DNA from: Arthonia radiata
Taxonomy: Eukaryota > Ascomycota > Arthoniomycetes > Arthoniales > Arthoniaceae
Assembly: GCA_002989075.1 (NCBI GenBank)
Contig: PSQN01000013.1
Span: 592,379-656,378, forward strand
Length of the DNA: 64,000 nt
Reading direction: 5' to 3'
In this document: positions 39,130 to 60,019 of the stretch, piece by piece
Numbering within the stretch: the stretch's first letter is position 1
Layout of the letters: each line of letters opens with the position of its first letter
Notes under the pieces: model-generated
What the model was told of the DNA's origin: nothing
The model's input: only the letters and a program-made list of their open reading frames with translations
The model's database searches: none
Position numbers and translations under genes: made by a program

Positions 39130-42100
39130 CTAGTCTTCTTGATAACTCAGCTTCCTCATCTCCCCAAGGCGACCGCGTGCTGCACTTAGAGAGTTCTCAA
39201 GCTGCAAAATCTCGACCTGCTGCTCCATCTCTCTCACCTTGAACTCGTGGCCGCTAAGCTTGCTGTAGTCGACTTGCTCCTCGCCTTGATTCTTTTCGGC
39301 GATGATGTCCTGGACTTGCCGTACTAGGCTGCGGCATGCCCCCGTAACCCTCTTGCTCGCTTCCTCGAGCCTCTCCTGTGTCTTGCTCATGAACGTCGCC
39401 TTCACGCGAGACGCTGCCACCAGCTGCGCAGTGGAAGCGGAGACGTCGTTGGAAGCAACAATGAGTTGCTCAGGACTGTTGCGGGAGCTGATGACCCCAT
39501 CCGCAGTCTCAATCAAGACATTGGTGCTGCTCGCCACAGCTTTGGCAGCTGAGAGCAAGCCCTCTGTCCACCGATTGTTCTTCTTGTAGTATGCAGATCG
39601 AGACATGCTGCTACCTCTGCCCGCACTGACGATCTCCTCCTGTGACTTGGATGCTGCCTTGATGAGCTCAGCAATGGCTGATGTGACAGCGATAGCAGCC
39701 GCCAGAATGGCGTCGTGGACGCGCAGCTCGTAGGTTGAGTACTGGTCGCGATTCTTGTTCTGCATCTTGGCAAGCCTCGCCGCAGCGTCTTCGATCGATT
39801 TGGCGGCGTTGGCCATCTCTCGGTCAACCAGGTCGCCCAGGTCGCCCGTGCCGGTGGTGACTCGAGTCTTTGGCGCAAATGCGTCCGCCATCTTTGACAG
39901 CTTTTGCAAGTTCATCTGCACCTCGTTGTTGTTGTTGATGACCACGTCGGTCTTTTGCATGTCGTCCAACCCGTCAATGCGGAAAGAAGCTAACGAGCGA
40001 AAGAAGTTGACGGTCGATTGCGCAGATTGTCGCGCGCCATTGATGAGCTGATCGCCCTTGCGCTCATCGGAAGCGAAGCGAGTGAGACCCTTGGTGTTTG
40101 ACAACACGTCAGCGATGGCGCCAGAAAAGTTCGTCACGGTGCGAATGATCTCGGCGTGCGTGCTATTAGGGCCATCGGCGATGTAGTTGTTGAAGGAAGT
40201 GGAAAATTCCATAGCGGACGCAGACGCCTTCTCGACCTGTGATAACACATACGCTCCAGACGCGTTCTGATTCCCGGCGATCATGGTCGAATCCAGCTCG
40301 TAGAGCGCGTCGTCCACACGCTGGATGCCGCTACGAAGTACTGAATCTACGATGTCGCTGAGTTTCTTGATGTTAGCCATGAGCATGCTGTCAATCTCGC
40401 TGTCCAGAGCCTTGTCAGTGTCTCCTTGTCCGAGCTTGAGCTCGTTGAGCTGAATCAGCGTCTCATCCATGCCAGCCTTCAAGACCTCAATCTCCTCCTC
40501 TTTATCCCTCAGTAAGCGCTCCAGGTCTGAATCCTGTTCGCCATACTTCATGTGGGCATCGTCGAGCTGGCGTGTCTTATTTCGAAGAGCCTCCTCCAGG
40601 TCGGCTATCTCGCGATTATGCCGCGAAAGCATAGCAGAGAGCTCAGAGCCTTTTGATCGGTCGAGATTATCAGCACGGTCCAGCGCCATGCGCAACTCCC
40701 GCTGGAGCTTCTCTACCTCATCTCTATGACCTCCGCTAGACCGATCTTTGTCATGCATTGCGCGGTCCCGCTCTCGTATCATGTCCGCTAGCTCAAGGTT
40801 CTTTGTCTTCAGCTCCCGCTGCAGCTTCTCCCGTTGATCAATGGCCTCCTGCGCCGATGCCGCCTTTAATTGGACACCCTTGAACTTCTGAAGCAACTCG
40901 AGATGCTCATGTCGCAGCTGTGAATACAACTTGGCGAGCGCCTCATACTTAGTCCGCCATGTGTTGATCTGCTCTTGCAAAGCCCGGATTTGCTCATCTT
41001 TCGACGCTGTCTGTTGGCCAAAATTCGCATGAAGCTGTTGTAGCTCGCCTTCGAGTGCCTTCATCCGACGATCGTATTGTTCAAGCATCAGTTGATCTCT
41101 CTCGTACTGCGCTCTGGCGTTGAGGTTCTCCCGTTCAAGCTCCGCCATGCGACCCTGTGTCTGCGCTGCGAACTGATCCCGCATGAGCTGATCCTGCGCC
41201 ATCTGCTGTTGCTGCGCCTGCAGCCGCTGCTGGTCCTCAAAGTCGCGTTGGGCTTGCATCGCTTGTTGTTGCTGCATCCGCTGTGCTTCTTCCCACTGCT
41301 GCTGCAGCCGCCTCTGCTCTGCCTCATAGTCGTCCTGTTGCTGCCGCTGCTGATCCTTCCAAAACTCATTGATGGGCTCGGGATCAACAGCTTCTCGTGG
41401 CGGCGACGCTTGCCTCGGTGGGGAGGTTTCTCGTGGACGCGCCGGGAGCGCTGGCTTCTCCTCGTCCTCCGACAGAACATTCGGTGGGTCTTGAGGCAGT
41501 CGTGGAATCGTGATCAAGCTTGTGAGGTATCGTAGACTGCTGCATTCATGATAGAAATGGACAAGGCGGTAATGCTGTGTGTTGTATCTGCTTCGCAAAT
41601 GCTCGAGCGCTTCATCGTCGCCCAGTGCGGTGTGCATAGCTCGGAGCATGCTGGTCACGAACTTGTAGATACCGTAGCTCTCTGCTACGAGCGGTACCAG
41701 AGCTGAGATGCGGCATTCGTTGTTCATCGAACCGCGGAAGTGTGCGAATATCAGCTTTTGAAATCCATCTATTTGATCTTGCAGTGCCATAAGCTCGGTG
41801 ATGGTCTCGTATCCCTCGTTGGGATCGCTGGTGGTCCGGAGGCTGATGTACTCTTCATACTCAAAAGTGCCGTTGAAGTCGGGGTGATGGCGGTGGAACG
41901 CCAGTTTCGACAGTAGCAATCGAATGTACTCTCGAATCAGCTGGCCATATCCACGTATTCCCTCTCCACCCATGGAACCGCGCGCTAAGCTGTCGAGCCA
42001 TCCTACATGGGCCTGCGCTTCTCTCAGTGACGAGGGATGACCCTCTTGCAGGACCTTGTGTATAGTCTGGAGAGCCTTGAAAGTCTGAACCTCGTCAGCT

Positions 42101-42300
42101 AGGATGGGCTGAACCTTCATGCCCGACCAGAAAGAATTGGAGTTTTTGTGATCCCATGTGTAGACGATGCAGGCGCGGACATGTTTTCGCTTCGGCGCGG
42201 TCTCCTCGACATTTGTAGCTTTGCGTATGTTGTCAGAGAGTTGTGCTTCGGACTTCCCTAGATTTACATTGCGGGTGGTAGAGCCATAGGAGTGAGCCAT
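39130..42300 (-). CDS. SLA2: Endocytic adaptor Sla2/End4 (HIP1R homologue)
   Basis: Links clathrin-coated pits and PI(4,5)P2 membranes to actin during endocytosis and polarised growth. Single exon, 1056 residues, the usual length. ANTH lipid-binding domain at about 15-280 (SDNIRKATN near the start; KRKHVRACIVYTW; HPSSLREA). A Pro-rich stretch and then long coiled coil at about 310-640, very rich in Gln (QQQQ runs near 320-370). The C-terminal I/LWEQ (talin-HIP1R actin-binding) module is at about 800-1045 (ILAAAIAVTSAIAELIKAA, WTEGLLSAAKAVASSTN). SLA2 is the most widely used landmark gene next to the ascomycete mating-type locus. Confidence 0.97.
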   Translation of the reverse strand: MAHSYGSTTRNVNLGKSEAQLSDNIRKATNVEETAPKRKHVRACIVYTWDHKNSNSFWSGMKVQPILADEVQTFKALQTIHKVLQEGHPSSLREAQAHVGWLDSLARGSMGGEGIRGYGQLIREYIRLLLSKLAFHRHHPDFNGTFEYEEYISLRTTSDPNEGYETITELMALQDQIDGFQKLIFAHFRGSMNNECRISALVPLVAESYGIYKFVTSMLRAMHTALGDDEALEHLRSRYNTQHYRLVHFYHECSSLRYLTSLITIPRLPQDPPNVLSEDEEKPALPARPRETSPPRQASPPREAVDPEPINEFWKDQQRQQQDDYEAEQRRLQQQWEEAQRMQQQQAMQAQRDFEDQQRLQAQQQQMAQDQLMRDQFAAQTQGRMAELERENLNARAQYERDQLMLEQYDRRMKALEGELQQLHANFGQQTASKDEQIRALQEQINTWRTKYEALAKLYSQLRHEHLELLQKFKGVQLKAASAQEAIDQREKLQRELKTKNLELADMIRERDRAMHDKDRSSGGHRDEVEKLQRELRMALDRADNLDRSKGSELSAMLSRHNREIADLEEALRNKTRQLDDAHMKYGEQDSDLERLLRDKEEEIEVLKAGMDETLIQLNELKLGQGDTDKALDSEIDSMLMANIKKLSDIVDSVLRSGIQRVDDALYELDSTMIAGNQNASGAYVLSQVEKASASAMEFSTSFNNYIADGPNSTHAEIIRTVTNFSGAIADVLSNTKGLTRFASDERKGDQLINGARQSAQSTVNFFRSLASFRIDGLDDMQKTDVVINNNNEVQMNLQKLSKMADAFAPKTRVTTGTGDLGDLVDREMANAAKSIEDAAARLAKMQNKNRDQYSTYELRVHDAILAAAIAVTSAIAELIKAASKSQEEIVSAGRGSSMSRSAYYKKNNRWTEGLLSAAKAVASSTNVLIETADGVISSRNSPEQLIVASNDVSASTAQLVAASRVKATFMSKTQERLEEASKRVTGACRSLVRQVQDIIAEKNQGEEQVDYSKLSGHEFKVREMEQQVEILQLENSLSAARGRLGEMRKLSYQED

Positions 42301-42899
42301 GCTGGCGAAGAGGAGCTTTGGTGAGGATTGTGGGCGAGGTAAGGTTTGATGAAGGGCGACGAATCAATCGAGTAGCTTCCAGGCGCCACAACCATTCAAA
42401 TTACTACTGCCTGCGGCATGTACGCGGACAGTGGCCCAGCTTCACCACCACGTCAGCTCCGGCTCCGTAGGGCTGAAATGGGCACCCTGTCCCGCTCGAT
42501 ACCGCCTCTCCCGTGATAGCGCGCGTTGAGCGCGTCCGTGGCGACAGAAGTCACCTCCACAACTTGATTTAATCTTTCCGCTCACAGTAACTCAACAAAC
42601 ACGACCTCTAATCAAGAGCCTTTCAATCTGAGCAACGGTCGCACCGTCGTATTTGGGTGTCAAACGCGCAGGAGATTATCCTACACGGGTGTGTCCAGGC
42701 TCCGGCATCGTCCAGACGAGGCAAGCGCGACAGAAACGTACAGGCTCGAATATCGCTGACCGCAAGGCAAGGCAACTAGCAGAAGCTGGCGATGGACTTC
42801 ACTTGAGATAGTTCAGGGTACCGCAACTCTAGGGGTCATTCGCAGCCGGACATCTTCATCTCCATTTGCCACATCGCGCCCATCCTGGAGCGACCGCGT
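42301..42899. promoter_or_regulatory. Divergent intergenic region, SLA2 / REV3
   Basis: 599 bases. Contains the promoters of SLA2 and REV3 and probably the unresolved first exon of REV3. An ATG at 42792 is in frame with REV3 but is followed by an in-frame TGA at 42804. Confidence 0.45.
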
Positions 42900-45800
42900 T
42901 TTCGCCTCCGGCTAAATTGCATCGATCATTATCAAACATCGCTCTCACACTTTGACCCGCCATTGTTTGGCAGGTATGGCTCCACACAGCAGAGGGATGC
43001 GCCCTCGCTCCCTGTCATCCGTGTCTTTGGAGCGACCGAGACGGGCCAGAAAGTTTGCGCCCACATCCACGGCGCGTTGCCCTATCTTTTCATCGGGTAC
43101 GATGGCAGCGTGGAGAAGGCCGAGCTTGACTCATACATCCATCAGCTACGTGTATCCATAGATCACGCTCTTGCGGTCAGCTACCGGCGCAACATCTACG
43201 ACAGCAGAGCTAGGTTTGTTGGGCACATCTCTCTCGTCAAGGGCGTGCCTTTCTTTGGCTATCATGTTGGTTATCGATATTTCCTGAAGATCTACATGCT
43301 CAATCCTGTCAACATGACCCGGTTTGCGGATCTGCTCTATCAAGGCGCAATCATGAAACAGGTCTTTCAGCCGTACGAAGCTCATCTGCAATACTTGCTG
43401 CAGTGGATGTGTGACTTCAACTTGTATGGATGCGCTTACATCGAATGTGACAAATATATGTTTCGCGAACCTATCCCAAGCGCGACAGGCCTTAGCGCAA
43501 AGCACATGTGGCATGATCAATCAATACAGCAGGATTGGGTGTCGCCGGCAGAAGACTTCCCTCGACAGAGTCACTGTTCTTTGGAAGTAGATCTGTGTGT
43601 GCATGACATTGTCAATCGTGCAGATGTCCAGCCGCGCGACGTACACGCTGACTTTGCTGAACATTTTCAGCCCGGCAATCCGGAAGAGAAGCTTGTACGC
43701 TCTCTTGCCGGGCTTTGGATGGACGAGTCCAAACGCCGAAAACGGCGAATGGGACTGGCTGACAATTCGAGCAGCCCGTTCCCTCCAGAAGTCCTAGTCT
43801 CGATGTCTGCGGATTCTCGAAACACCAAGAAAGGTGGCTGGATCCATGAGGACGAATATCGTGAGAAGGTTGCTCATCTGGTGACGGAAGAGATGACACG
43901 GCTGGATCAGCCTCGATTTGGGTTCAAAGACTTCGTTCAACATCGCTCGGCCGAAGAAAGTGTCAGATCCGTCTTGGAGAGTGTTGAGGATCTTTTCCCG
44001 GAGAGCATCCGGGCCTCTCTAGATTCTCATGATGACAGCAATGGTACGGAACAAGTTCCTATGGCGCACACACAAGCGATTGTGGACGAAGCGAGTATTC
44101 CCAACCTTGAACACGAGGACTTTCCGTATGAGTCCGAGGAGAACGACATCTCAGGAAGGCCACAGCCTAAAGCGAATGGTGGTCGGGTCAAAGGCGAATT
44201 TCCCATATCAGGGCCGATCGTGGATGATGATGCTGTTCACCCTCAAGAGGGACCTATTACATCGAGCGATGAAATAGACTTCGGCCGGATGGCTGACGAT
44301 GACACTTGTTCACCGCATTACGAAGGAAGCACAAAGAATGGGGAAGACGATGGTAATGAGATACAGCACATACAACGGTCGAGAACGGCCGTGGAAGATG
44401 GCCTAAACAGGCCCCTGAAGAGGCAGAAGCTACAGCACGACCATTGGCCGCTCGACACAAGAGACCAGCCAATGGACCGCAATGACTTTATCCAGGAGCC
44501 GTCTAGCACAAGTCAGACGACTACACCCACTCCCAGCCAGCAACTGTCCCAATCTCACATCAATGCCGCTGACGCTGAAAAGAACGGCTTTCAGGGATTC
44601 CGTGTGACAAAACCTTCTTCACTTCCATCAAGCCAAAAACAAGTCTCGGAGCCTGTCACGCCGGCACATGCGCAACGAGCGACTAACGCTAAAGCGTCAA
44701 TGTCTGTCTCCGCCAGCCGCTATAGATATGCCTCAAGCTATCAATCACCTCAGAGTGGGAAGCCGCCACAAGACACCGTCTCCCCTTTACTGCAGAGGGT
44801 GGCAAACTCACGCCTCGCTCTCGGCTCTTACGGCAGATGTTCAGCCGCGTTTGAGCCAGCAGCACCATCTTGTAAGAGTGTCCTTGAGAGTCTCGACGAT
44901 ACGGGCGCTGCCACGTTCCTCTACCAAGACGCATATTACAGCGATGACAGAGATGTGCCCGAACGTGCACGTGACTATGCTGGACGTGAATTCAAGCTCA
45001 TGGGTTCTTCCGCGCCGTATTTGCCGCCATTTGACGCTTCCGGTATGTCTGCTGCCATTCAGGGCGATCAGTTTAATTTTGTGCTTGATAACGCCGCTGA
45101 GGAAAGCTCGTTTGCGAAGTCTCGTCGACACTGTAACGTTCGAAATTGGGAGTATCAAGTGAAGCCCCCATCTTGGTCCAACGTCCACCAATGGCTGCAG
45201 AATCAGCGGTCTTCGACGAAGCACCTGCATGATACTAGGCCTGACAAGAAACAGCTGCTATCCAAATCGCCTTTACGAGCGAAGAAGGGAGCGCTTTCCC
45301 AGATCGAAGGTCCCACGCAGAAAAATTCCCACGGCATCAAGTTCTCTCAGAAGCGGAAATCTACCAGTGTCAAGCATGAAACGCAATATATGAGCACAAT
45401 GAGTCTTGAAGTGCATGTGAATACTAGACAAAGTTTCGTGCCGAACCCTGAAGAAGACGAAGTGGTGTGTATATTTTGGGGCGTTAAGCGAGATGATGAG
45501 CTGGGCGACGAGGGAGATGAGCGCTTCTCGTCGGGTATGCTACTTCTTGCTGACGATCAAGAGACCGCGCGTAGTGTCTCACAAGAGACAACAGTCAAAG
45601 TCGAGTGGTGGCCTAATGAGCTAGACTTGATGAATCGTACTGTGGACATTGTTCGCGACTTTGATCCCGATATTCTCACAGGATATGAAGTCCACAATGG
45701 CTCGTGGGGCTATCTGGTCGAGCGAGCTCGCGTCAAGTACGAGTTCGATCTGTGCGATGAGTTTTCTAGGATGTTGTCGCAGTCGCATGGCAGATTCGGC

Positions 45801-47972
45801 AAAGACGCTGATCGCTGGGGATTCAACACCACATCGACTCTGAAAGTCACTGGCAGACATGTCATCAACGTGTGGCGAGCTATGCGGAGCGAGCTGAATC
45901 TGCTTCAGTATACGATGGAGAACGTAGTATTCCACCTGCTCCATAAGCGCATTCCGCACTATTCTTTTCCGGACCTCACCGCCCTCTTCAGCAGCGACAA
46001 AGCACGAGACGTGTCAAAGTGCCTACAATACTTCGTCAGTCGGACACGCCTGAATTTGGATATTCTAGAAGCGAACGAGCTTGTGCCGCGGACGAGTGAG
46101 CAAGCAAGACTGATCGGAGTCGACTTCTTCTCTGTGTTCTCTAGGGGCTCACAGTTCAAGGTCGAATCATTCATGTTCCGCATTGCAAAGCCTGAAAACT
46201 TTCTCTTGGTGTCTCCGAGTCGGAAGCAGGTCGGTCAGCAGAACGCGCTCGAATGCCTACCTCTTGTGATGGAGCCCCAAAGCGCCTTCTACACGAGCCC
46301 GTTACTTGTGCTCGACTTCCAATCACTTTACCCTAGCATCATGATCGCCTACAACTACTGCTACTCGACTTGTCTCGGTCGAGTCGTAGGCTGGCGCGGT
46401 CAGAACAAGATGGGGTTCGCCGACTTCAAGCGCCAGCCAGGTTTGTTGGGCCTCGTCAAGGACTCTATCAACATTGCGCCGAACGGAATGATGTACGTGA
46501 AGCCCGAGATGCGCAAGTCGCTTCTTGCAAAGATGTTAGGTGAGATTCTGGAGACTCGTTTGATGGTCAAGAGCGGCATGAAAGCAGATAAGGATGACAA
46601 GACGCTGCAGCAGTTACTCAACAACAGACAGCTCGCCCTCAAGCTGCTTGCGAACGTCACTTACGGCTACACTTCAGCATCTTTCTCCGGTCGCATGCCT
46701 TGTTCTGAGATTGCAGACAGCATTGTACAGACTGGCCGCGAGACCCTAGAGAAGGCCATTGCCTTGATTCATTCAATCGAGCGCTGGGGTGCTGAAGTCG
46801 TCTACGGTGACACGGACAGCCTTTTCGTCTATCTCAGAGGTCGCACGCGTAATCAAGCCTTTGACATTGGCAATGAGATCGCCGCAGCGGTCACTAAGAT
46901 GAACCCGCGCCCCGTCAAGCTCAAGTTTGAAAAGGTGTACCACCCCTGTGTGCTCCTCGCCAAGAAACGCTACGTCGGCTTCAAGTATGAGTCCAAAGAC
47001 CAAGTCGAGCCTGACTTTGATGCAAAAGGTATCGAAACTATCCGTCGAGACGGCACGCCTGCCGAGCAGAAGATCGAAGAGAAAGCCCTCAAAATCCTTT
47101 TCCGTACCAGTGACCTCAGCCAAGTGAAATCTTACTTTCTCCGCCAATGCACTAAGATCATGACTGGCAATGTTAGTATTCAAGACTTCTGCTACGCGCG
47201 CGAAGTGAAGCTCGGGACATACGCGGACAAAGGGCCACCACCGCCTGGCGCCCTAATCTCGACTAAGCGCATGCTTGAAGACGCCCGCACAGAGCCGCAG
47301 TACGGCGAGCGCATTCCATACGTGGTCATAACTGGGGCTCCTTCTGCACGCCTTATTGACCGGTGCGTCGCACCCGAGACGTTGCTGAAAGACGACTCAG
47401 CCGAGCTCGACGCAGAGTACTATATCAACAAGAATCTCATCCCCCCACTCGAGCGCATCTTCAATCTCGTCGGTGCAAACGTGCGGCAGTGGTTTGATGA
47501 AATGCCCAAGGTGTACCGAATCCGCGACGTCCGACAAGCTCATAACCAAGGTCCGCAGTATGCGCCTAACGGCGCGCTCATGCAGCCTGTCAAAACGCTG
47601 GAGGGATACTTGCACACGTCTCATTGCGTAGTCTGCCGCTCGAAGCTGCCACAGCGCGTGCCGGGCTCAGATAAAGTTGTGCTACCTGTTTGTGAATCGT
47701 GCCTAACTGAGCCAGCGAGCAGCCTGTACACTATGAAGATGCGACTGCACGAGGCCCAAGGGACACAGGAAGCCGTGCATGATATTTGTCGCAGCTGTAG
47801 CGGGTTGGCGTGGGGCGAGAAGGTCAGATGTGATAGCAAGGACTGTCCGGTATTCTATACTCGCGTGAAGGCTGACCGAAAGCGGGAGCGGTGCGAGGTG
47901 GTAGCGGAGACGGCGGAGGATGCGTTGAGGAGTGATGCGGAGAGGCGAGGCGAGGTGGCAATGGATTGGTGA
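42900..47972 (+). CDS. REV3: DNA polymerase zeta catalytic subunit Rev3, start unresolved
   Basis: Carries out translesion DNA synthesis with Rev7. The body is one exon to the stop at 47972, about 1690 residues. The conserved N-terminus is visible from about 42900 (FRLRLNCIDHYQTSLSHFDPP), yet no in-frame ATG begins it, so a short first exon is probably missed; the start given is the beginning of recognisable homology. Family B features: an exonuclease-like region (DPDILTGYEVHNGSWGYL), polymerase motif A (LDFQSLYPSIM, near residue 1137), motif B (KLLANVTYGYTSASFSGRMP) and motif C (YGDTDS, near 1300). The C-terminus has two Cys clusters: CVVC...CESC (zinc) and CRSC...CDSKDC, the site of the iron-sulphur cluster that binds Pol31/Pol32. 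The region between is Ser/Asp-rich. Confidence 0.93.
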   Translation, partial: FRLRLNCIDHYQTSLSHFDPPLFGRYGSTQQRDAPSLPVIRVFGATETGQKVCAHIHGALPYLFIGYDGSVEKAELDSYIHQLRVSIDHALAVSYRRNIYDSRARFVGHISLVKGVPFFGYHVGYRYFLKIYMLNPVNMTRFADLLYQGAIMKQVFQPYEAHLQYLLQWMCDFNLYGCAYIECDKYMFREPIPSATGLSAKHMWHDQSIQQDWVSPAEDFPRQSHCSLEVDLCVHDIVNRADVQPRDVHADFAEHFQPGNPEEKLVRSLAGLWMDESKRRKRRMGLADNSSSPFPPEVLVSMSADSRNTKKGGWIHEDEYREKVAHLVTEEMTRLDQPRFGFKDFVQHRSAEESVRSVLESVEDLFPESIRASLDSHDDSNGTEQVPMAHTQAIVDEASIPNLEHEDFPYESEENDISGRPQPKANGGRVKGEFPISGPIVDDDAVHPQEGPITSSDEIDFGRMADDDTCSPHYEGSTKNGEDDGNEIQHIQRSRTAVEDGLNRPLKRQKLQHDHWPLDTRDQPMDRNDFIQEPSSTSQTTTPTPSQQLSQSHINAADAEKNGFQGFRVTKPSSLPSSQKQVSEPVTPAHAQRATNAKASMSVSASRYRYASSYQSPQSGKPPQDTVSPLLQRVANSRLALGSYGRCSAAFEPAAPSCKSVLESLDDTGAATFLYQDAYYSDDRDVPERARDYAGREFKLMGSSAPYLPPFDASGMSAAIQGDQFNFVLDNAAEESSFAKSRRHCNVRNWEYQVKPPSWSNVHQWLQNQRSSTKHLHDTRPDKKQLLSKSPLRAKKGALSQIEGPTQKNSHGIKFSQKRKSTSVKHETQYMSTMSLEVHVNTRQSFVPNPEEDEVVCIFWGVKRDDELGDEGDERFSSGMLLLADDQETARSVSQETTVKVEWWPNELDLMNRTVDIVRDFDPDILTGYEVHNGSWGYLVERARVKYEFDLCDEFSRMLSQSHGRFGKDADRWGFNTTSTLKVTGRHVINVWRAMRSELNLLQYTMENVVFHLLHKRIPHYSFPDLTALFSSDKARDVSKCLQYFVSRTRLNLDILEANELVPRTSEQARLIGVDFFSVFSRGSQFKVESFMFRIAKPENFLLVSPSRKQVGQQNALECLPLVMEPQSAFYTSPLLVLDFQSLYPSIMIAYNYCYSTCLGRVVGWRGQNKMGFADFKRQPGLLGLVKDSINIAPNGMMYVKPEMRKSLLAKMLGEILETRLMVKSGMKADKDDKTLQQLLNNRQLALKLLANVTYGYTSASFSGRMPCSEIADSIVQTGRETLEKAIALIHSIERWGAEVVYGDTDSLFVYLRGRTRNQAFDIGNEIAAAVTKMNPRPVKLKFEKVYHPCVLLAKKRYVGFKYESKDQVEPDFDAKGIETIRRDGTPAEQKIEEKALKILFRTSDLSQVKSYFLRQCTKIMTGNVSIQDFCYAREVKLGTYADKGPPPPGALISTKRMLEDARTEPQYGERIPYVVITGAPSARLIDRCVAPETLLKDDSAELDAEYYINKNLIPPLERIFNLVGANVRQWFDEMPKVYRIRDVRQAHNQGPQYAPNGALMQPVKTLEGYLHTSHCVVCRSKLPQRVPGSDKVVLPVCESCLTEPASSLYTMKMRLHEAQGTQEAVHDICRSCSGLAWGEKVRCDSKDCPVFYTRVKADRKRERCEVVAETAEDALRSDAERRGEVAMDW

Positions 47973-48313: not shown

Positions 48314-49765
48314 CTACACTGCGACTTCGCCACCAGCCACCCTCTTAGTTCGATGTCCGTCCAATGCATCATTAGACTCCCCGTCTTGGGTCTGCGATAT
48401 GGAGCGCTTCCTCGCAGACTCGTCCAGCTTGGCCTTCCTATCACTTTCAGCACCATTTGGCACGAATCCCTCCCTGCTCTCTTCCTCCTGCCACGCCTCA
48501 TCCCTCGGCACCTCTCGCGCTCGCGCATCAACAGTCTCCTCTACCAGCTCGGTCTCCTCTTTCGGTGCCTCGAGCAGTCCCCTCTTACCATCCTCGCCAG
48601 CACAGTAGCTGTTCTTCACCGTACTGTGACAGCACGCATAGCCCCACTGGAAGTCTTCCCACCAGCTGCCCCAAACGCTCGTGTGGTTGTTGATGAGCAC
48701 ATCCTCTGCATAGATGCTCTTCACCTTGCCCTTCACCTTGCCTTTGATCTTTCCGCGCTCATCATACTCCACAAACCGCTCGTTCTCCATGACGGCAGGC
48801 TGCGTCTCGCGATCCGCCTTGAACTGCTCTTGACTGCCGTACTTCTCGGCCAACAGCTTCTTCTGCTCCGCCTTCTTGCGCTCTTGCTCTTCCAACTCCT
48901 TCTTCCGGAAGTACTCGCCGGACGTAGGGTTGGCTTGGACGTGTAGGTTGCTGTTCCCCGCTTCTTGCGAATCCCACGCTGCCCGCGAAGCTTTCTCAAA
49001 CTCCGCCGCGTCACCAGACTGCCTTACGAATCCCTCTTCAGCCACCAGCGCCGCAGCCTTATCCGCCGTTGCGCCCTCATCTACCATCCGCCGGGTCTTT
49101 GGATCGTACTTCGCCGAGTCCAGGTCCAAGTTGAGCAAATACTTCGCAGTGTCCTCTCGTATGCGCAGCTGCTTCTGCCCTTTGCCGGGTTGTGCAATTT
49201 CGGCAGTCTCATCACCATGCTCCTGTCCCGCATCCTCGTCGTCTTCACCATTCAGTAACCGCTTCTGCTCCTCCACAAGCTGCCTCACTTCATTCTGCTG
49301 CTCCACCGCCATCTGATGCTCCCTCACATCATAACCATTCCAGCGATCCCTCTTCGCGTCCCAGTCGTTCGCCCCGCCGCCCGTGACCTTCACATCCGCC
49401 TCGATGTCCCGCCCACTGTACTTCGCGCCCACCTTCCGCGGCCTGCTCAGACAATCCTTCTTCGCGTGTCCCATGCCTCCACAGTTCTCGCACGCACCCT
49501 TCCTATACTTCGTTGCCGCACTGCCTTTCTTGAGCCCCCGAGAATGCCATTTCTGCTCGGAGGTGGCGAGAGAAGAGGCGGTGGAGGGCTGGACGAGGCG
49601 CTGGTGCTCGAGGTAGTCGGAGGTGGAGTTTTGAGTGGTTGTGGCGTATGTGAGGTCGCGTTCTTCGGTGGCGTAAAAGGGCTTTTTGGAAATGAAGGAG
49701 GGGATGTATTCGTTGCGTTCTTTGGAGGCAGCGGTGGGGTCTGGTTTGCGGGGTTGAGAGGTCAT
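48314..49765 (-). CDS. SLU7: Pre-mRNA splicing factor Slu7
   Basis: Acts at the second catalytic step of splicing and in 3' splice-site choice. Single exon, 483 residues. Seen: NEYIPSFISKKPFYA near residue 20, WHSRGLKKGSAATKYRKGACENCG (positions 73-96) leading into a CCHC zinc knuckle C-x2-C-x4-H-x4-C (CENCGGMGHAKKDC), then RKVGAKYSG, WDAKRDRWNGYD, and LNLDLDSAKYDPKTRRM near 210-225. The C-terminal block SVWGSWWEDFQWGYACCHS is the family hallmark. The tail is Glu/Arg-rich. Slu7 is normally intron-poor in fungi, which fits. It lies between REV3 and MAT1-1-1 and is divergent from the latter. Confidence 0.95.
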   Translation of the reverse strand: MTSQPRKPDPTAASKERNEYIPSFISKKPFYATEERDLTYATTTQNSTSDYLEHQRLVQPSTASSLATSEQKWHSRGLKKGSAATKYRKGACENCGGMGHAKKDCLSRPRKVGAKYSGRDIEADVKVTGGGANDWDAKRDRWNGYDVREHQMAVEQQNEVRQLVEEQKRLLNGEDDEDAGQEHGDETAEIAQPGKGQKQLRIREDTAKYLLNLDLDSAKYDPKTRRMVDEGATADKAAALVAEEGFVRQSGDAAEFEKASRAAWDSQEAGNSNLHVQANPTSGEYFRKKELEEQERKKAEQKKLLAEKYGSQEQFKADRETQPAVMENERFVEYDERGKIKGKVKGKVKSIYAEDVLINNHTSVWGSWWEDFQWGYACCHSTVKNSYCAGEDGKRGLLEAPKEETELVEETVDARAREVPRDEAWQEEESREGFVPNGAESDRKAKLDESARKRSISQTQDGESNDALDGHRTKRVAGGEVAV

Positions 49766-52052
49766 GGAGGATCACTTTGCGATACGGAGGAAACTACAAT
49801 ACGGAGAGGAGAGAGGAGGGAGCCGCCGCAATGGACGACAGCGCTCAATGGGAATGGGTGATCGAAGGTATCTCGCCGTCGATATCAAACTGTCCAAGAC
49901 TTTGCGACAAATACGGACTAGCTTGCTAGAATGTAAGCCTGAGCTATCAGGCGCGAACAGCCCTACGAGGTCGCCAGGCGCCAGATTTCACGTGCAGGCG
50001 GCCGCCTGCAAAGTCCAGCCAGCAGTGTTTCAGAAGCGTGCACGGGCCAAGTTGGGTTCAGCCATCGCTTTTTGAGAGCGAAGTGGTGCTTGCAAATTAT
50101 TGGCGCAAAAAGTGGGAGGCTGAAAATGCGATGGCTGGAAGAGCGATTTTCGGCGAAAGATGGCTGTGCGCTAGCCGCCCCGACACTAGCGCAGAAATAC
50201 ATTTTACAGTGGTTTCTTCGTCTGAAGTGCCCTGGTTGTCAAGGGCAACCGAGATCAGATGAAAAAAGTGTGATGAAGACAGATGGACGTCACAATGTAC
50301 GGACATGTAATTTGAACGTCATAATGAGTACTGAGGCTCGAAATTCTGGGAGGAGAATTCTGTGACTTGCAGGATGCTGCGGAGGGTTTATGTAGTACAC
50401 ATCTCCAGGGCTAATTGAATTGAAAGGCTGGAAATGCCAGCCAGACTGTTTCTCGTGCTGCAGGCTACGACAGTTAGCCATTACAATGTGAATCAACCGC
50501 GCGCGAGTTGCTGGAATGCAGGACGGCATGAACCTTACTGCAGCCGCGCGCCTGGCGGTAAGAAAGCCGAACGTTAGATCCGTGCGTCCTTGGATCACGT
50601 GTAGCAATAGGGGCGTCCGACCGCATGCCTCATCCAACGATCATCGCATGTCTTCCTCAAGCTTACCCTTCGTGGACGTCGTGGTCCTGATGCAATGCTG
50701 GCTTGCGAGTCTTCAATCTGATGCACTTACACGTCTTCTGCGACCTTGCGCAGAATACAATGTGCGCGTTGCGGCTATGTCCTCGACGGTCTGAGACAAA
50801 GCAAACGCATACTCGCTTTGTCCGTATGCGTCGTTTGCAGCACTTGGTTGTTTGGAAAAGCTGGAAGGGACTGTTGCGCCTGCAATGACGCCGTCCGTAA
50901 ACTCCCATACGTGGTGGTGAGATAGACGAGATCAGGACCGCACAATGCACACTGCGCTCTGGACTCCTCGCGCAACGAACCATCGTACTTATGAACAGAT
51001 GCTGTCAAGCATGCTCCTATGTCTCTGTCAAAGCGTGTAGCCCTTCAATATCCTCAAGTCTTTCTTCTGCATAGAGTTGTTTTGGCAGAACCTACCATCA
51101 ACCGGTGGCGACCTTCATCAACGCGCTCTTCATACGCGCCTGCCCATATCGCTCGACGGTGAATATCCGATACTCATCAACGCCTTGCCGTTGTGACGAA
51201 AAGCTGAAGATACGCATCGCAGGCTCACCTCGAGCTTCCACATGTGGCAGCCGGCGGCGATAAATAGGCGGCGCTGCGTGTTCAGCCTTTCATTTCCCCA
51301 CTCCTCTCCCGTGCAATCTTCTTATCATCCTCGTTGAAACGAATCGATTGCGTCTCCAACACATCTTCAATACAATACGCTTCGCTCCTTGCTTGCCTAA
51401 AGCATCGAGGAGCTTTGGTGACTCTGGAAAGCCCACTGATTTTGGATGCGAGACCAAGCTCGCTTATTACGTCAACACTGCTAAACCGGCCTCGAGTGCG
51501 AGATCAACCGACTGTGAGTAAAAGAGGCTGCTATCAAGGGCGTTTGAATCCACATGCGCATGGAGATAGTACATCACTGACCAACGTGTTTTCGTAGTTA
51601 CGAGTGAAGTTAAGGAGCCGTTTCAACCAAGAGGAACGGGATAGAAGCCACGTGAGAATGCTTAGTGGTGATCACACATTCACTCGTCCTCGCCGCTCTC
51701 ACTTAACTTTTCTGCGACCTCAGCAGCAATGGGCAAGCACGACAATTCCATCCACGTCAACTTGCAACACATAGCGTCAGCACTCAAGCTGGTCATCTGT
51801 CTCGTTGGCCTGGCCATAAGTAGGGGCTGGTTTGTTGACGCAACCGTTGCCCGGTCAAGTGGGTGCGGGCTTGAGCTTTGGCCAGCGCAAGTCACAATAC
51901 GAAGCGAGGCCTCTCCCAGCCATCTTCGTCTTCTCCATATCTTTCTATTCCAGCGCTTCTCATCAGAACTGGTTTCTGCAGATTCGTTTCGACTCTCTGT
52001 TCGTTCTCTTTGTCCATTCCAACCAGATCATTTCAAGCACATCTGCGTTACG
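49766..52052. promoter_or_regulatory. 2.3-kb region between SLU7 and MAT1-1-1
   Basis: No convincing gene. It holds the two promoters and probably the left border of the MAT1-1 idiomorph. A minus-strand frame at 50290-50637 begins GRTPLLLHVIQGRTDL-like sequence that faintly recalls an ankyrin repeat but has no second repeat. The frame of MAT1-1-1 stays open upstream to an ATG at 51729. Confidence 0.4.
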
Positions 52053-53475
52053 ATGGAGAACACTCCAGTCAACTCTCCCAGCGGTGCTGACAGCGGCGAC
52101 ATCCCCTACAACAACAAACTTCTTGCTTACCTCCAAGACAAGACCGACGATGAACTCAAAGAGTTCATTGATATGATCCGTGGCCTGCAACACTCTCGTG
52201 GCGGCAAGAAGCCAAAAAAGAAGAGCGGGAGAATCAACAAGCGCCCATTCAACATCATCAATAGTGATGGCACCACGGCTGAGAACCCTCCTCCAGGTCT
52301 GAAGCCTCTCAACGGCTTCATCGCGTTCAGATGTATGTTCCTCTCAATCCATGAGACTTCTTTCACCGCTGACCTCCTTAGCCTACTACCTTCCCATTTT
52401 CAAATCAGTTCAGCAAAAGGATCTCTCCGGCATCATGAAGCAGCTCTGGGCGAAGGACGATACTAGGAACGAGTGGAGTGTCTTCGCTAGGGCTTATTCG
52501 CAGATCCGTGACAAGATTGGCAAGACTGCTGCGCCATTGAGCAATTACCTCGACATCGCCTGCCCTCTGATGGCCATCACGAAGCCCCAAAGCTACCTCA
52601 ACAAACATGGATGGACGCTTGTCGACTCTGACAATGGGCAGTTGCTACAGCAGGTGCTTCAGCCTCAGTTTGCGAGCTTTCAGACAGAGATTCGCGTCTC
52701 GACGGCACTCATGTCAACGGAAGAGCTCGTCGATGCCTGTGCGGCTTCCGGCTATGGTGTACAGACTGACACAACTACGCCAAACGCCAACCAGCCTACC
52801 CAAGGAGTACCAGTGATGACCATGACTGTCGTCCCTCACGTCGTTCCAAACATCAACCAGACCGTATCTGGCAACATTATTGCTGGGCAAAATCCAGTCG
52901 CTGTCCATAACATCAATGAAAACTTGGGGAATGCGAGCATGCACAATACCTCCAACAACAACGCAATCACCACACAGACAGCACCAATGTCCACACCCGG
53001 TGCTTCGGTTGGAAACAACGCCAATCCCCCTGCGGGACGCGGCAGCCTCAGCAACGCCAATCCTCCTGCGGGACGCGGCAACCTTAACAACGCCAATCCT
53101 CCTGCGGGACGCGGCAACCTTAACAACGCCAATCCTCCTGCGGGACGCGGCAATCTCAACAACGCCAATCCTCCTACGGGACGCGGCAACCTCAGCAATG
53201 GCTCTTCGACAAACAACGGCAGCACGCCTCAGGAAATTACTGCTAACATGCAGAACGACGTCAACGCTGCGATCGCACCCCTCCAGCAGATGAACAACGA
53301 CTTCTGGGGCGCTGATGAGCAAGCTTCCTTCTACAACTACTTCATGCCTGGCAATGAACCGGAAGACATATTTGATCCCGACACGTTTAACGACCAGGTT
53401 GCGTTCAACCTCATGTCTATGGACTTCAATCCCTTCGCGAACACCAAAAACAACGGCAGATTCTTTCAGGGCTGA
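52053..53475 (+). CDS. MAT1-1-1: Mating-type protein MAT1-1-1 (alpha-box transcription factor)
   Basis: Master regulator of mating identity in MAT1-1 strains; controls pheromone and receptor genes. Two exons, 52053-52332 and 52382-53475 (49-base intron), give 457 residues. The alpha box (MATalpha_HMG) starts near residue 80: LKPLNGFIAFRS, split by the intron at the conserved place, then YYLPIF, QQKDLSGIMKQLW, WSVFARAYSQIRD and KPQSYLNKHGW. The intron inside the FRSYY motif is a hallmark of the family. The C-terminal half is Asn/Pro-rich with a five-copy 12-residue repeat at 322-381, and ends in an acidic segment. An in-frame ATG at 51729 could add 108 residues with no family likeness; I prefer 52053. 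Confidence 0.95.
53017..53196 (+). repeat. 36-bp minisatellite, five units, inside MAT1-1-1
   Basis: Five direct units (53017, 53053, 53089, 53125 and 53161, each 36 bases) encode a 12-residue unit of the form NANPPAGRGNLN. Units 2 and 3 are identical; units 1, 4 and 5 differ by a few bases. Being a multiple of three, copy changes keep the frame. Confidence 0.97.
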
Positions 53476-54034: not shown

Positions 54035-55014
54035 ATGGTCGAATTCAAGTCTCGCCCAACGCTCGATGAAGCTCCTGCGCGCTTTGACCCTTCGAAGTGC
54101 GGAAACGAAAAAGCGAAACATGTCGTACCATCGTCGGGTAGATAACTCAATTCCGCGAGCCCGTGCATGGAAGCTTAGCTAATGGTCCAACGCAGAGAAA
54201 GAATTCAAATATCTCAGCGGTGAGGACCCGCTTACAACCTTCACTCTTGAAGATTCGACATTAGCTGCAATGCATGAGATACACCTCATATTTGGTGACC
54301 TGAAGCGAAGGGTCAAGCATTTCAAAGACGATGATGAGAAGCCTTCTGAGCAGAACACCTTACCGCGTCCGCTCCCGATGACTCGCAGAATCGGTCTCTC
54401 AACCGAAGGTCTCATCGACGAGAATAAGATTGAGCGCCTCAACGCAGTGTACGCGAACGAGAAAATCTTTGTTGACGCGATGCTACCTTTGACGGATTTT
54501 GGTCACGATGGCCAGGGTTATGATGGAATGACACAAATAGAGCTAAATGAAGTTGCGCGAAATGCCCTGCGCGAAAAGATACAGACGTAAGCCGGGTGTA
54601 TTTCTCGAGCATTGACGATGAGCTGATTCGTCAAGCGAAACCAACCAGCGAGCAGACCTCAGGAAGCTGCTGCCAACGCGTCCACGTGGAAAAGGCATGA
54701 GGGCGATAATGATGCCGTATCTGTCCGATTTCGCCGACAAGATGCCACTGAGCAACTACGAACTTACTCATCTCTCGCTACTTATGTGTGTGCCACCAGA
54801 CGAGCTGATCGAACTTCGTATGTGTCTGCTTCCACGCGAGAGCGACTCCTCTGTTGAAACCTCTTCCACAGATGCTAATTTTGATTTAGTCAATCAAGAG
54901 GTGGAGAAGAAAGCGAATCTGCGTCGTCTCTCGGCTGCGATGCATAGAAGTGGAGGTCCTGGAGCGAAGCGCCTCTTCGAAGAAATGGAGGAGCGTCGTT
55001 CACACTGGCGCTAG
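54035..55014 (+). CDS. Unrecognised four-exon gene next to MAT1-1-1 (candidate idiomorph gene)
   Basis: Four exons, 54035-54137, 54196-54586, 54636-54817 and 54890-55014, give 266 residues. Phases agree at all joins. The first intron has a GCTAATG branch sequence, the last a GCTAATT one with donor GTATGT. The protein starts MVEFKSRPTLDEAPARFDPS, is charged and mostly helical, has no membrane segment or signal peptide, and ends EEMEERRSHWR. Conserved-looking stretches are AAMHEIHLIFGDLKRRVKHF and MPYLSDFADKMPLSNYELTH. I know no domain here. By position, just 3' of MAT1-1-1 and on its strand, it may correspond to one of the accessory MAT1-1 genes described in Dothideomycetes (for example MAT1-1-10), but I cannot confirm this. 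The third intron is 72 bases, without an in-frame stop, so it could be retained. Confidence 0.75.
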
Positions 55015-55451
55015 TGGCGAATAAATAGCCTCGACCGTTCACGGTTGAAGAGCTCATAGCTTCACTGTCAGAACGACGCATAGCTCTCCACTTCAGCAGA
55101 CGCCATCGCGGAGGGAGTGAGGGAGTTGATGTTTGCGCAGCCAACGCGAGAGAAGGCGATCATCTGTGGCTGGGGAGTCCATGAACCGGAAAAGCCTCAC
55201 TTTTCTTTCTGAGGTAGAACAGAACAGCACCTTACTGTTGCCAGGTAGACTGACCCGCGGCATGCGGCGGCGGCGACGGTAGCCAGCAAAGTGAATTGCA
55301 CACGAGGAGATGTCACGTTTTTTCATGCCACCCTCGCGTCCTTTTCTACCTCGCGAATCTTTTTTTGGCAATCAGCCTCTCTATCTGCCCAAATGCAAAC
55401 CCTCAAACTATCAGAGCGACGGGAGGGCACGAAATTGACAGAAGGATCGCT
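55015..55451. other. Intergenic region, MAT-linked gene / PALC
   Basis: 437 bases. An open frame in phase with PALC begins at 55296 but reads as leader sequence. The right border of the idiomorph may lie here. Confidence 0.4.
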
Positions 55452-56921
55452 ATGCCTTTCCCAATCTCATTGCCTCGTACATCTCTTCTCTCGTTTTCCT
55501 CCGCCCTGCGCAGTAGCACACACCCCTCGCTACCTCTCCAGGCCACAACATATCGCAATGTTCTCCGATCTGCATTGAAGGAGCATCATGAAAATGCAGG
55601 TAAGAACAAACACGCCCCGACAGGGCCTATAGATGTCGCCGTCGAGCAGTATCTTCCCCTCTTATTGGCCCTTAACAGCGGGCTTCGTTCGGACGCCGTC
55701 ATCGTGAACGAAGAGGTAGACGTCGTCCTCGTCAAAGAAGTCCAAGTACGCTGGCGCTCGATGTTGCTACGCTCACGACTTTCTGGGTCAAAACCACCGA
55801 CCATTCAGGCCTGCGGTCTTGACGCTGAAGTGGCATTCGCAATGTCAGCGCTCGCCGTCTCATCGTGCTTGAAAGCCAGGAGCCTACTGCGGCTTCTTCA
55901 CGATACTAATGGAGAGAACGGCTCTTCTCAGCCGCAGTGGAGAGTCACACAGATTGCTGCAGGCATGGCAAGCCTGCTTCATGCGAATGCTATCTATAAC
56001 TACTTGTCCGCATACATGCTAGCCACTTTGTCCATTCACATCCCTACGGAGATCTCCCCGCCAGCTCTCTCTGCATTGGCGAGCTTGACACTGGCTGAAG
56101 CGACCCTACTGGCTGTACTGAAAGATGATCCCTACCCCAGCCTCATCGCTGCCGAAAGAAATGCTAATGACAAAGGCTGGATGATCGGCGCGCCCAGGAT
56201 ACCTAAAGTCCGTGCTCACTTGTTCTCTAGGATATGCGTTGCTTCAGCAGACCACGCAGGCCGGGGCGTTGCATCCTGCAAAGCTGTGTCATCATCAAAA
56301 GGCGGTGCTCACGCGCGTGCGACCGACACGTTGCACACGTATCTTCTATGTCTTCGACGGGTGGCGAGGGCGAAGGCATGTAGGTTCGCTGCCATCAACG
56401 CGGAAGCAGACGGTGCGATTGGCAGAGCAATCGGATGGCTCTATGCAGCCCTTATCGAAATGGAAGTTGAGGATTCTGAGATCGACGCCCTTCGTCCAAA
56501 GCGCTCCAAGGCCAGCAATATCAAGATGACAATAGGCAGAGCGCGCTCCGACAAGAAAGAAGACAAGCTTATTGAGAAGCATAGTGATTGGGGAAGCGAT
56601 GCTGGAAAGCTGGAGGAAACGCGTGTTGTTGCAATGCTCCTAGTCAAGTGGGAACATATCAACGACACCGTCGATTTCCAGCCTGTGATCAGTGCCCATG
56701 AGCTGCTAAGTGGCTTGCCTACGGGCCGCGAATGCCACACCAGTAAAGTGTGGACACCACCGAGTTTGTCTCCCGAAGCTCTGGCGGAGATGCGAGCGCC
56801 TCCATATGCCGACGAAGAACGACAGGTCACACAAGCCGACGAGCCTGAGAGCAGTGACGAGGATCGACCACTCAACAGCGAGGCAAACCATACACAAAGC
56901 GTTCCTGGCGCGTATTACTAG
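55452..56921 (+). CDS. palC: pH-response regulator PalC (BRO1-like domain)
   Basis: Part of the Pal/Rim ambient-pH pathway, linking ESCRT-III (Vps32) to plasma-membrane signalling complexes. Single exon, 489 residues from the ATG at 55452 (MPFPISLPRTSLLSFSSAL), the conserved PalC start; an ATG at 55296 in the same frame would add 52 residues without likeness. The BRO1-like domain covers about residues 20-400: YRNVLRSALKEH, YLPLLLALNSGL, VQVRWRSML, ASLLHANAIYNYLS, and SLTLAEATLLAVLKDDPYP, which is typical of BRO1-type helices. The C-terminus is acidic. It sits between the MAT genes and COX13, on the APN2 side. Confidence 0.88.
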   Translation: MPFPISLPRTSLLSFSSALRSSTHPSLPLQATTYRNVLRSALKEHHENAGKNKHAPTGPIDVAVEQYLPLLLALNSGLRSDAVIVNEEVDVVLVKEVQVRWRSMLLRSRLSGSKPPTIQACGLDAEVAFAMSALAVSSCLKARSLLRLLHDTNGENGSSQPQWRVTQIAAGMASLLHANAIYNYLSAYMLATLSIHIPTEISPPALSALASLTLAEATLLAVLKDDPYPSLIAAERNANDKGWMIGAPRIPKVRAHLFSRICVASADHAGRGVASCKAVSSSKGGAHARATDTLHTYLLCLRRVARAKACRFAAINAEADGAIGRAIGWLYAALIEMEVEDSEIDALRPKRSKASNIKMTIGRARSDKKEDKLIEKHSDWGSDAGKLEETRVVAMLLVKWEHINDTVDFQPVISAHELLSGLPTGRECHTSKVWTPPSLSPEALAEMRAPPYADEERQVTQADEPESSDEDRPLNSEANHTQSVPGAYY

Positions 56922-57171: not shown

Positions 57172-57732
57172 CTAAGAGTCTTTGTCGTGATAATTGTAGT
57201 TGTCATTCCAAAACAGCGACTTGTCTCCATCACCCCAGGGGAAAGCCTTCGTTCGAATGTTCATATAGGCGTATTGGGTACGCTCGCTGGGTGGTGGCAT
57301 GTGAGATTGATGCTCCCAGTGCTCATTCCATTGGACCCAGGTATTCACGCCGGTCACGATAAGAGCTGGAACGACGACGCTGTGGATTTGTCAGACGCGG
57401 TCTCGTACAGAGAGAACGGAATCTCATACTAGATCGATAGTTTTCGCCAGAAGTCTGGAAGGGCAAGGTTAGCGAGCTGCTGGATCAAGCACGGCATTCA
57501 ATGTGGATACCACGGGAGGGGTCCGCAACTTACCGGCGGTCGCAGCGGCATGCTTTTTCACAGCAAGACGCTCCCGATTGAAGGCATTATCGTAGGGACC
57601 CTCAAGCTTGTCAACGGTATGACCGGTGCTCTTGGGCGCATCTGAAGCGTAGCGCTTCGAAAGCCGCACCGGCGCTGGGAGGAGCTGGCGAAATGCTGTC
57701 GTCCTTGGTAAGAGTGCTGCGCGAGAAAGCAT
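57172..57732 (-). CDS. COX13: Cytochrome c oxidase subunit VIa (Cox13)
   Basis: Nuclear-coded subunit of complex IV in the mitochondrial inner membrane. Three exons, 57732-57534, 57454-57430 and 57379-57172, give 143 residues. Exon 2 is only 25 bases; it supplies DFWRKLSI and joins in phase on both sides. The N-terminus (MLSRAALLPRTTAFRQLLP) is a basic, Ser/Leu-rich mitochondrial presequence. A single membrane segment follows the second splice (VVVPALIVTGVNTWVQW), then the family block NEHWEHQSHMPPPSER, YAYMNIRTKAFPWGDGDKSLFW. Divergent from APN2 with 266 bases between starts. COX13 beside APN2 is a classic MAT flank. Confidence 0.95.
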
Positions 57733-57998
57733 CGTGCAATGAAGCGCGACAAGATATGTGGAATGGAAGAGGCTGGGATGAGATACTGGCCAACCTAGGA
57801 GGAGGTTCGGCAGCGAATCAGCACGGACCACAGACCGAGTACAAATCGAGCACTAGCGCAAATTGAGCTCTGGATGTCATTCTATTTCACCAGGAAGGTG
57901 CAGCTCACAGACACCTGCATTACAGGCTCTTCATTAGGTGGAAACGTTGTCGCCCTTGATAATGAAAATTTGCGACTCTCCACAACGCCATCGCCACT

Positions 57999-60019
57999 AT
58001 GGGCGTGCGCATCACTACGTGGAACGTCAATGGCATCCGCAACCCCTTCGGCTACCATCCCTGGCGCGAGAAGAGAACATTCGACAGCATGTTCGATACC
58101 CTGGAAGCCGACATCGTTGTCTTTCAAGAGCTCAAGATTCAACGTAAAGACTTGAGGGATGACATGGTCATGATACCTGGGTGGGATGTGTATTTTTCTC
58201 TACCCAAGCATAAAAAAGGTGCGCCAAGATGCCCATTCGCCAGATGCAATATCACATGCTCACTGTCTGTATAATAGGGTATTCAGGCGTCGCGATATAT
58301 ACCAGACAATCAACATGTGCCCCCATCCGTGCCGAGGAAGGCTTACTGGGCGTGCTATCTCCACCTACGATCTCCGTTGCTTATCGTGACATGTCCGCAG
58401 ATGAGCACATTGGTGGTTATTTGACAGTCGCCCAACTTGCCCGAGTGAATGTCGATCCTATCTTCCTGGACTCTGAGGGTCGTTGTGTCATCCTTGAATT
58501 CCCAGCTTTTGTTCTCTTCGGCATTTACAGTCCTGCCAACAGCAGTGGCACGCGGGACGACTTCCGGCACGGATTTCTCCTGGCTCTGGACATGCGCGTA
58601 CGCAATCTCATTCGTCAAGGGAAACGGATCGTTGTATGTGGAGACTTGAATGTCAGCCGTGAGGAGATCGATACCGCCAATGCAGTGGAGAACATGAGGA
58701 AAGAACACATATCGCATAAAGACTATCTGTCAACACCGAATCGTCGAATTTTCAATCAGATGCTTGATGGGGGCAAAGTTTTTGGTGCCAGAGACGAAGG
58801 AAGGGACGAAGCCGTAATGTGGGACGTATGCCGGGCCTTTCATCCAGACAGACATGGCATGTTCACTCATTGGGAACAAAAGATCAACGCGCGTCCCGGC
58901 AATTTTGGCTCAAGGATCGACTTCATTTTAAGCAGCATGGACATGAAGGGTTGGTTCTGCGGCAGTGACATTCAAGAGGGACTTATGGTATGCGACAGGG
59001 GTCTGACGCTATAGCTTTTCGACTAATTGAGTGCAGGGCTCGGATCATTGCCCCGTCTACGCCGAGCTTCACAACACTATTGACGAACAGGGTAATTGCA
59101 GACATGTAAGGGATATTTTGAATCCGCTGGGAACCTTCCATGATGGTCACCGTAGAAGAGAGATATCTAGCAAAGATATGCCGGCATTCTCCGCGAAGCT
59201 AATGCCAGAGTTCGACAAGAGGCGAAATATCAAAGACATGTTCGGACGGGGATCCACCAATCCTCGTCCAGCATTGCCTCATCTTGAGCCAGAGGCACAA
59301 ACAGAAGCATGTCTGAATGACACTCGAACCGAGAAAACATCCGCGAATGTTGTCGGGTCGCCCGCAGACACAGGGAGCGCGGAAGAAGCACTCATCAAAA
59401 TTAGTCCTACCTCAAACTTGGCAACACCAAGGGGCGTGAAGCGCCGTCTGTCCAATGCAATTTGTTCTCCGCAGAATTCGAAGAAACAAGGCAGAGGATT
59501 TGACAAGGAACGCTTCAAGAGTACTACCGGCAGTCAGCAAAGCTTGAAGGGATTTTTCACAGCAAAGCAAGCTCCTATGCGTAAAACGGCGGGGATAGAA
59601 CCTCAGAAAGAGCCCGCCAGCCCAAGGTCTGTGGCTTCTGCCAATCGACGAACAAGCTATCAGCAACCTGTTCCTAACGATAGTTCGACGGCTGACGTGC
59701 ATGAGACTTTTCACGAACAGGAGCCAATCATCGATCCTGCAGCCTCCAAACTATCATGGTCGAAGCTCTTGGCAAAGCCGAGCACGCCGCTATGCGAACA
59801 CGAAGAGCCATGCAAGGTCATGAAGACGAAGAAGCCGGGCTTTAATTGTGGCAGAGAGTTCTGGATGTGTCAAAGGTGAGCCATACGTGCAGGGGTACTA
59901 CTCTGGGAATTATTGCTGACCCACTTTTGAGACCTTTGGGCCCGTCGGGTGAGAAAGAACGCAAGTCCCAGTGGCGGTGTCCTACGTTCATCTGGAGCAG
60001 TGACTGGAAGCCAAAATAG
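57999..60019 (+). CDS. APN2: AP endonuclease 2 (Apn2, DNA lyase)
   Basis: Cuts DNA at abasic sites and cleans blocked 3' ends in base-excision repair. Four exons, 57999-58218, 58278-58987, 59037-59875 and 59932-60019, give 618 residues. The exonuclease III-type domain has the metal and catalytic landmarks TWNVNGIR, FQELKIQ, YSGVAIYTR, CGDLNVSREEID, and, across the third exon border, GSDHCPVY. A Ser/Lys-rich linker with a PIP-box-like SQQSLKGFF near residue 500 may bind PCNA. The C-terminal GRF zinc finger is complete only after the last splice: CEHEEPC...GREFWMCQRPLGPSG...WRCPTF. APN2 is the standard right-hand flank of ascomycete MAT loci. Confidence 0.96.

Follow-up and report, generated by a model that had tools for sequence, protein, structure and literature searches.

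The mating-type (MAT) locus of Pezizomycotina usually lies between SLA2 and APN2. Secondary MAT genes are common and fast-evolving, and their function is mostly unknown. As described in PMC6562746, they frequently lack a known domain, and some, for instance MAT1-1-2 and MAT1-1-5 in the species that it names, are indispensable for sexual reproduction. Here we analyzed a window of 64,000 nucleotides of Arthonia radiata (contig PSQN01000013.1; all positions are those of the window unless another contig is named), in which a four-exon gene at 54035 to 55014, hereafter the target gene, adjoins MAT1-1-1 in a MAT1-1 genome, on the APN2 side.

The closest described systems are secondary MAT1-1 genes of other fungi. 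In Exophiala viscosa the locus is flanked by APN2 and SLA2 and contains MAT1-1-4; nothing extra stands between APN2 and MAT1-1-4, whereas E. sideris has an additional gene there, and the arrangement in E. viscosa implies that MAT1-1-4 is on the APN2 side (PMC10411609). MAT1-1-7 is reported from Letharia and most of the Lecanoromycetes compared in PMC10512270, which also gives homologs, some under other names, from Eurotiomycetes and Diplodia sapinea. The same account singles out the auxiliary genes of Leptogium and Dibaeis, which are unrelated to MAT1-1-7, as lying between MAT1-1-1 and SLA2, and by contrast this implies an APN2-side place for MAT1-1-7 (PMC10512270). With homologs of MAT1-1-7 in more than one class and a place on that side, a second gene at this position is expected rather than surprising. 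A putative MAT1-1-7 is given for Cladonia grayi (PMC6652019), and both of the two MAT1-1 isolates of Teratosphaeria pseudoeucalypti carry MAT1-1-1 together with MAT1-1-10 (PMC7513301).

In A. radiata the order is SLA2, REV3, SLU7, MAT1-1-1, target gene, a BRO1/DUF5355-like gene, COX6A and APN2, as read from Pfam matches. The target gene occupies the + strand after the MAT1-1-1 stop at 53475 and before the long open frame that follows at 55254; its ATG at 54035 leaves 559 bases between the two genes, which share a strand, as the first-pass annotation had stated. Its model was reproduced from the sequence, with four exons joined in phase to encode 266 residues (Table 1). Upstream exons were also sought, and no longer model was obtained by 5' extension. 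We searched the 1778-base gap that contains the target gene for every model compatible with donors GTRNN, a loose branch point, introns of 45 to 110 bases and at most three introns, and took 300 dinucleotide shuffles of the gap as the null for model length. When acceptors are limited to YAG, the gap yields a model of up to 281 codons with the same ATG and stop as the target gene, and the antisense strand one of up to 89; the shuffles average 103 with a maximum of 257, and none of the 300 reaches 266. Codon scores were trained on seven long open frames of the window. By this measure the target coding sequence reaches 0.117 per codon, and none of 290 windows taken from the training frames in a wrong frame exceeds 0.033. 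This coding signal stems from amino-acid content. The observation is confirmed, and a real gene, which the first-pass annotation had called very likely, is supported.

The product has no recognizable motif, again as first annotated. No Pfam-A or NCBIfam family matched it at E up to 5, with no check made of whether Pfam includes models for the remaining numbered MAT genes, and neither of the two long exon frames matched Pfam up to E 1. A sequence search of the PDB gave no convincing match; NLRX1, at E 1.1, was taken as a chance hit. The gene is single copy in the assembly, and a search of its own genome found no paralog. The best match there away from the locus, on contig C2 (E 0.09, 33% over 43 residues), was likewise ascribed to chance. 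Six short peptide patterns, able to detect only close relatives, found none in viral contigs and prokaryote genomes. The collections scanned are not where fungal MAT genes would be expected, and sequence novelty is not claimable from them. The N-terminal 168 residues have an isoelectric point of 5.2 and the C-terminal 98 residues one of 9.8. Two pieces were modeled by AlphaFold2 without an alignment. The first, 129 residues of exon 2, reached a mean predicted local distance difference test score (pLDDT) of 42.4; the second, 125 residues of exons 3 and 4 read through intron 3, reached 50.3. Helices are the only elements in both models, which at these scores are too poor for a fold search.

A search of the genome with PF00505 found five HMG boxes, four of them over the cut-off and none on the MAT contig, which makes this a MAT1-1-type locus in which no HMG box was detected; the Pfam scan of the target product found none either. 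The boxes elsewhere presumably belong to other HMG genes, which they resemble, and those on contig C15 and at 130 kb of contig C2 could conceivably be MAT1-2-1. The HMG-box gene on contig C2 (128464-131667), which is not at the MAT locus, contains the stretch RPMNSFMLYR and resembles the Ste11/FMF-1-like regulators of sexual development.

The first-pass annotation had left it between a new gene and a diverged member of a known set, and gene order and the papers cited here favor the diverged member. The position, strand and absent domain of the target gene match what is expected of a secondary MAT1-1 gene on the APN2 side. We think it somewhat probable that it is a strongly diverged ortholog of MAT1-1-7/MAT1-1-4, with MAT1-1-10 as a further candidate. 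One alternative name of MAT1-1-7 homologs is reportedly MAT1-1-4. The earlier suggestion that the gene stands where accessory MAT genes occur agrees with the APN2-side place implied for MAT1-1-4 and MAT1-1-7 in PMC10411609 and PMC10512270. On this reading, linkage to MAT1-1-1 would confine the target gene to MAT1-1 nuclei, and it may be transcribed together with the alpha1 transcription factor. Its product would be small, soluble and rich in helices, with its N-terminal part acidic and its C-terminal part basic. This protein might take part in sexual development once mates have recognized each other, such as the formation of fruiting bodies or asci, as has been shown for MAT1-1-2 and MAT1-1-5 in other fungi.

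Several observations weigh against the gene model or against this reading, beginning, for the model, with the splice sites. The first-pass annotation had described exons that join in phase with clear branch points; splicing is less clean than this suggests. Intron 1 has a good 3' end (GCTAAT...CAG) but an off-consensus donor, GTAGAT, and intron 2 closes with AAG. An alternative YAG acceptor for intron 2 at 54662 keeps the frame with the loss of nine residues, giving 257 residues when intron 3 is spliced and 281 when it is retained. The length of intron 3 is divisible by three and its reading frame is free of stop codons, so that its retention in the original model gives 290. The in-frame coding score of intron 3 (-0.004 per codon) falls within the range of the target coding sequence, 12.8% of 243 equal-length windows of that sequence being as low, so it is the borders GTATGT...TTTAG that support its removal. 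Product size varies from 257 to 290 residues with the choice of splice sites, and the four-exon model of 266 residues is predicted as the most likely pattern. Because the YAG grammar disallows the AAG end of intron 2, the enumeration was repeated with any AG as acceptor: the longest real model is then 290 codons (antisense 89), the shuffles have a mean of 123 and a maximum of 296, and one of the 300 reaches 266, and indeed 290. On synonymous codon choice alone the target gene scores -0.005, a value that 17.6% of the null windows match. This measure favors MAT1-1-1 (0.044) and SLU7 (0.048) but neither the APN2 part (-0.016) nor the BRO1-like gene (-0.009), so the missing synonymous signal counts only lightly against the gene. 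At the level of the locus, COX6A and the BRO1-like gene stand between the target gene and APN2, and the idiomorph border could fall between MAT1-1-1 and the target gene. As for other fungi, MAT1-1-4 is called specific to Herpotrichiellaceae in PMC10411609, which speaks against one shared gene. For Hortaea a single-gene idiomorph is expected, the condition reported for other heterothallic Loculoascomycetes (PMC3744574).

It is possible, though unlikely, that the target gene is instead a MAT1-1 gene confined to its lineage, which arose or was captured at the locus in the family of this fungus and has no relation to those already named. No family, paralog or relative was found in the collections searched, and such births are on record: a MAT1-1 gene of 90 residues is found only in Rhynchosporium according to PMC10569646, and the unrelated auxiliary genes of Leptogium and Dibaeis described above (PMC10512270) are a further instance. 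The same collections are unsuited to fungal MAT genes, so the missing matches say little, and the place it occupies is one already known for a shared gene. A fuller version, by which the gene arose in this lineage with a fold of its own, shares no homology with named MAT genes and performs a mating-type-specific task beside MAT1-1-1, seems to us a little more doubtful still.

That the target gene is simply a flank gene, which both mating types would carry and which by chance lies between MAT1-1-1 and the BRO1-like gene, is rather improbable. Hypothetical genes are common in such flanks, and the unnamed neighbors of MAT shown in PMC3744574, PMC9453070 and PMC4227064 are not necessarily tied to one mating type. 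Precedents exist in Hortaea, where Unknown-1 and APN2 lie on one side of MAT1-1-1 and the idiomorph is expected to hold a single gene (PMC3744574), in the genes labeled Hyp in Leotiomycetes (PMC10569646), and in ORF1-1-2 and ORF1-2-2, which adjoin MAT1-2-1 of C. fulvum (PMC9453070); moreover, an idiomorph border is not visible from one genome. Against these stand the short distance of 559 bases to MAT1-1-1 on the same strand and the BRO1-like gene, which could itself be the conserved hypothetical neighbor. That the target gene is non-functional, either a decayed relic, like the pseudogene that the MAT-locus open reading frame of unknown kind in Aureobasidium subglaciale turns out to be (PMC4227064), or a chance chain of open frames, is very improbable: the weak donor, the AAG end, the in-frame third intron, the missing synonymous signal and the single long shuffle with any AG are outweighed by the YAG shuffles, all of which fall short, by a codon score above all 290 wrong-frame windows and by a model that needs no assumed frameshift or stop.

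The neighbors of the target gene are listed in Table 1. The spliced N-terminal 219 residues of MAT1-1-1 match PF04769 with 140.7 bits, and its single intron, of 49 bases, lies inside the alpha1 domain. The C-terminal part of MAT1-1-1 contains a 12-residue repeat rich in Asn, Pro and Gly, encoded by a 36-base unit in 5.1 tandem copies with 93% matches (53014-53198), which may vary between strains. The interval from SLU7 to MAT1-1-1 (49772-52052), about 2.3 kb, holds no recognized gene: two open frames from it, 49943-50365 and 51963-52343, each scanned alone, matched nothing in Pfam up to E 1, and the interval had no Rfam match at gathering scores. The second border of the idiomorph may lie here, or else an extended 5' untranslated region. 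On the other side of the target gene, the combined BRO1 and DUF5355 profile of the 55254-56921 gene is presumably that of the pH-signaling protein PalC; a PDB search with this gene gave no convincing match. The exon that precedes the last exon of COX6A is probably within 57469-57852 (PF02046 at 0.031, below the cut-off), and the name APN2 is inferred from domains and place. Beyond SLA2 lies a PH/PF10296 gene; PF10296 corresponds to DUF2404. MAT itself is bordered by a PH/DUF2404 gene in Botryosphaeriaceae (PMC8905617) and by a PF10296 gene in Hortaea (PMC3744574). The PH/PF10296 gene may point to an older arrangement that subsequently lost SLA2, REV3 and SLU7. In three Hymenoscyphus species, SLU7, a DNA polymerase and SLA2 share one contig with MAT1-1-1 (PMC10569646). 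The synteny of the locus fits several fungal classes. For placement by rDNA, 5.8S rRNA was sought in the assembly with an Rfam model and with a sequence pattern, and neither gave a match.

Table 1 Features of the Arthonia radiata MAT locus, in window coordinates.
Feature	Position	Strand	Remarks
PH/PF10296 gene	35894-38290	-	Pfam match; beside SLA2
SLA2	39130-42363	-	ANTH PF07651 3.5e-80; I/LWEQ PF01608 2.2e-59
REV3 (DNA polymerase zeta)	42807-47972	+	Family-B polymerase PF00136 4.1e-105; PF24065 REV3_N 2.9e-16
SLU7 splicing factor	48314-49771	-	PF11708 1.6e-72
MAT1-1-1	52053-53475	+	alpha1 domain; model of 457 residues; one intron, 52333-52381
Target gene, exon 1	54035-54137	+	ATG at 54035; donor GTAGAT off consensus
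Target gene, intron 1	54138-54195	+	58 nt; GTAGAT...GCTAAT...CAG
Target gene, exon 2	54196-54586	+	Longest exon; coding score 0.175 per codon
Target gene, intron 2	54587-54635	+	49 nt; GTAAGC...CTGAT...AAG
Target gene, exon 3	54636-54817	+	Coding score 0.072
Target gene, intron 3	54818-54889	+	72 nt; GTATGT...TTTAG
Target gene, exon 4	54890-55014	+	Stop TAG at 55012-55014
BRO1/DUF5355-like open frame	55254-56921	+	Probable start 55452; E 0.0046 and 0.01, both below Pfam cut-offs
COX6A (COX13), last exon	57178-57375	-	PF02046 3.1e-30
APN2-like gene, two open frames	58214-59879	+	PF03372 1.2e-10; GRF zinc finger 0.009 (below cut-off)

The target gene is chiefly of interest as an added data point on the poorly understood secondary MAT genes. 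Were it orthologous to MAT1-1-4, MAT1-1-7 and MAT1-1-10, several lineage-specific names would collapse into one old APN2-side gene, and the missing recognizable domain would be an effect of divergence. Were it unrelated, it would be a further case of gene birth within a mating-type locus.

Compared with known systems, the target gene resembles Exophiala MAT1-1-4 as a secondary gene on what appears from PMC10411609 to be the same, APN2 side of MAT1-1-1, a likeness of position; the loci differ in that REV3, SLU7, the BRO1-like gene and COX6A intervene here. The likeness to MAT1-1-7 of Lecanoromycetes is also positional, each being a single auxiliary MAT1-1 gene that is not between MAT1-1-1 and SLA2 (PMC10512270). 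In Letharia the idiomorph of about 3.8 kb lies in the APN2-SLA2 region (PMC10512270). MAT1-1-3 of Leotiomycetes is likewise a secondary MAT1-1 gene, and its HMG box sets it apart from the target gene. MAT1-1-10 of Teratosphaeria accompanies MAT1-1-1 as a second gene in the MAT1-1 idiomorph (PMC7513301), and the target gene would do the same here.
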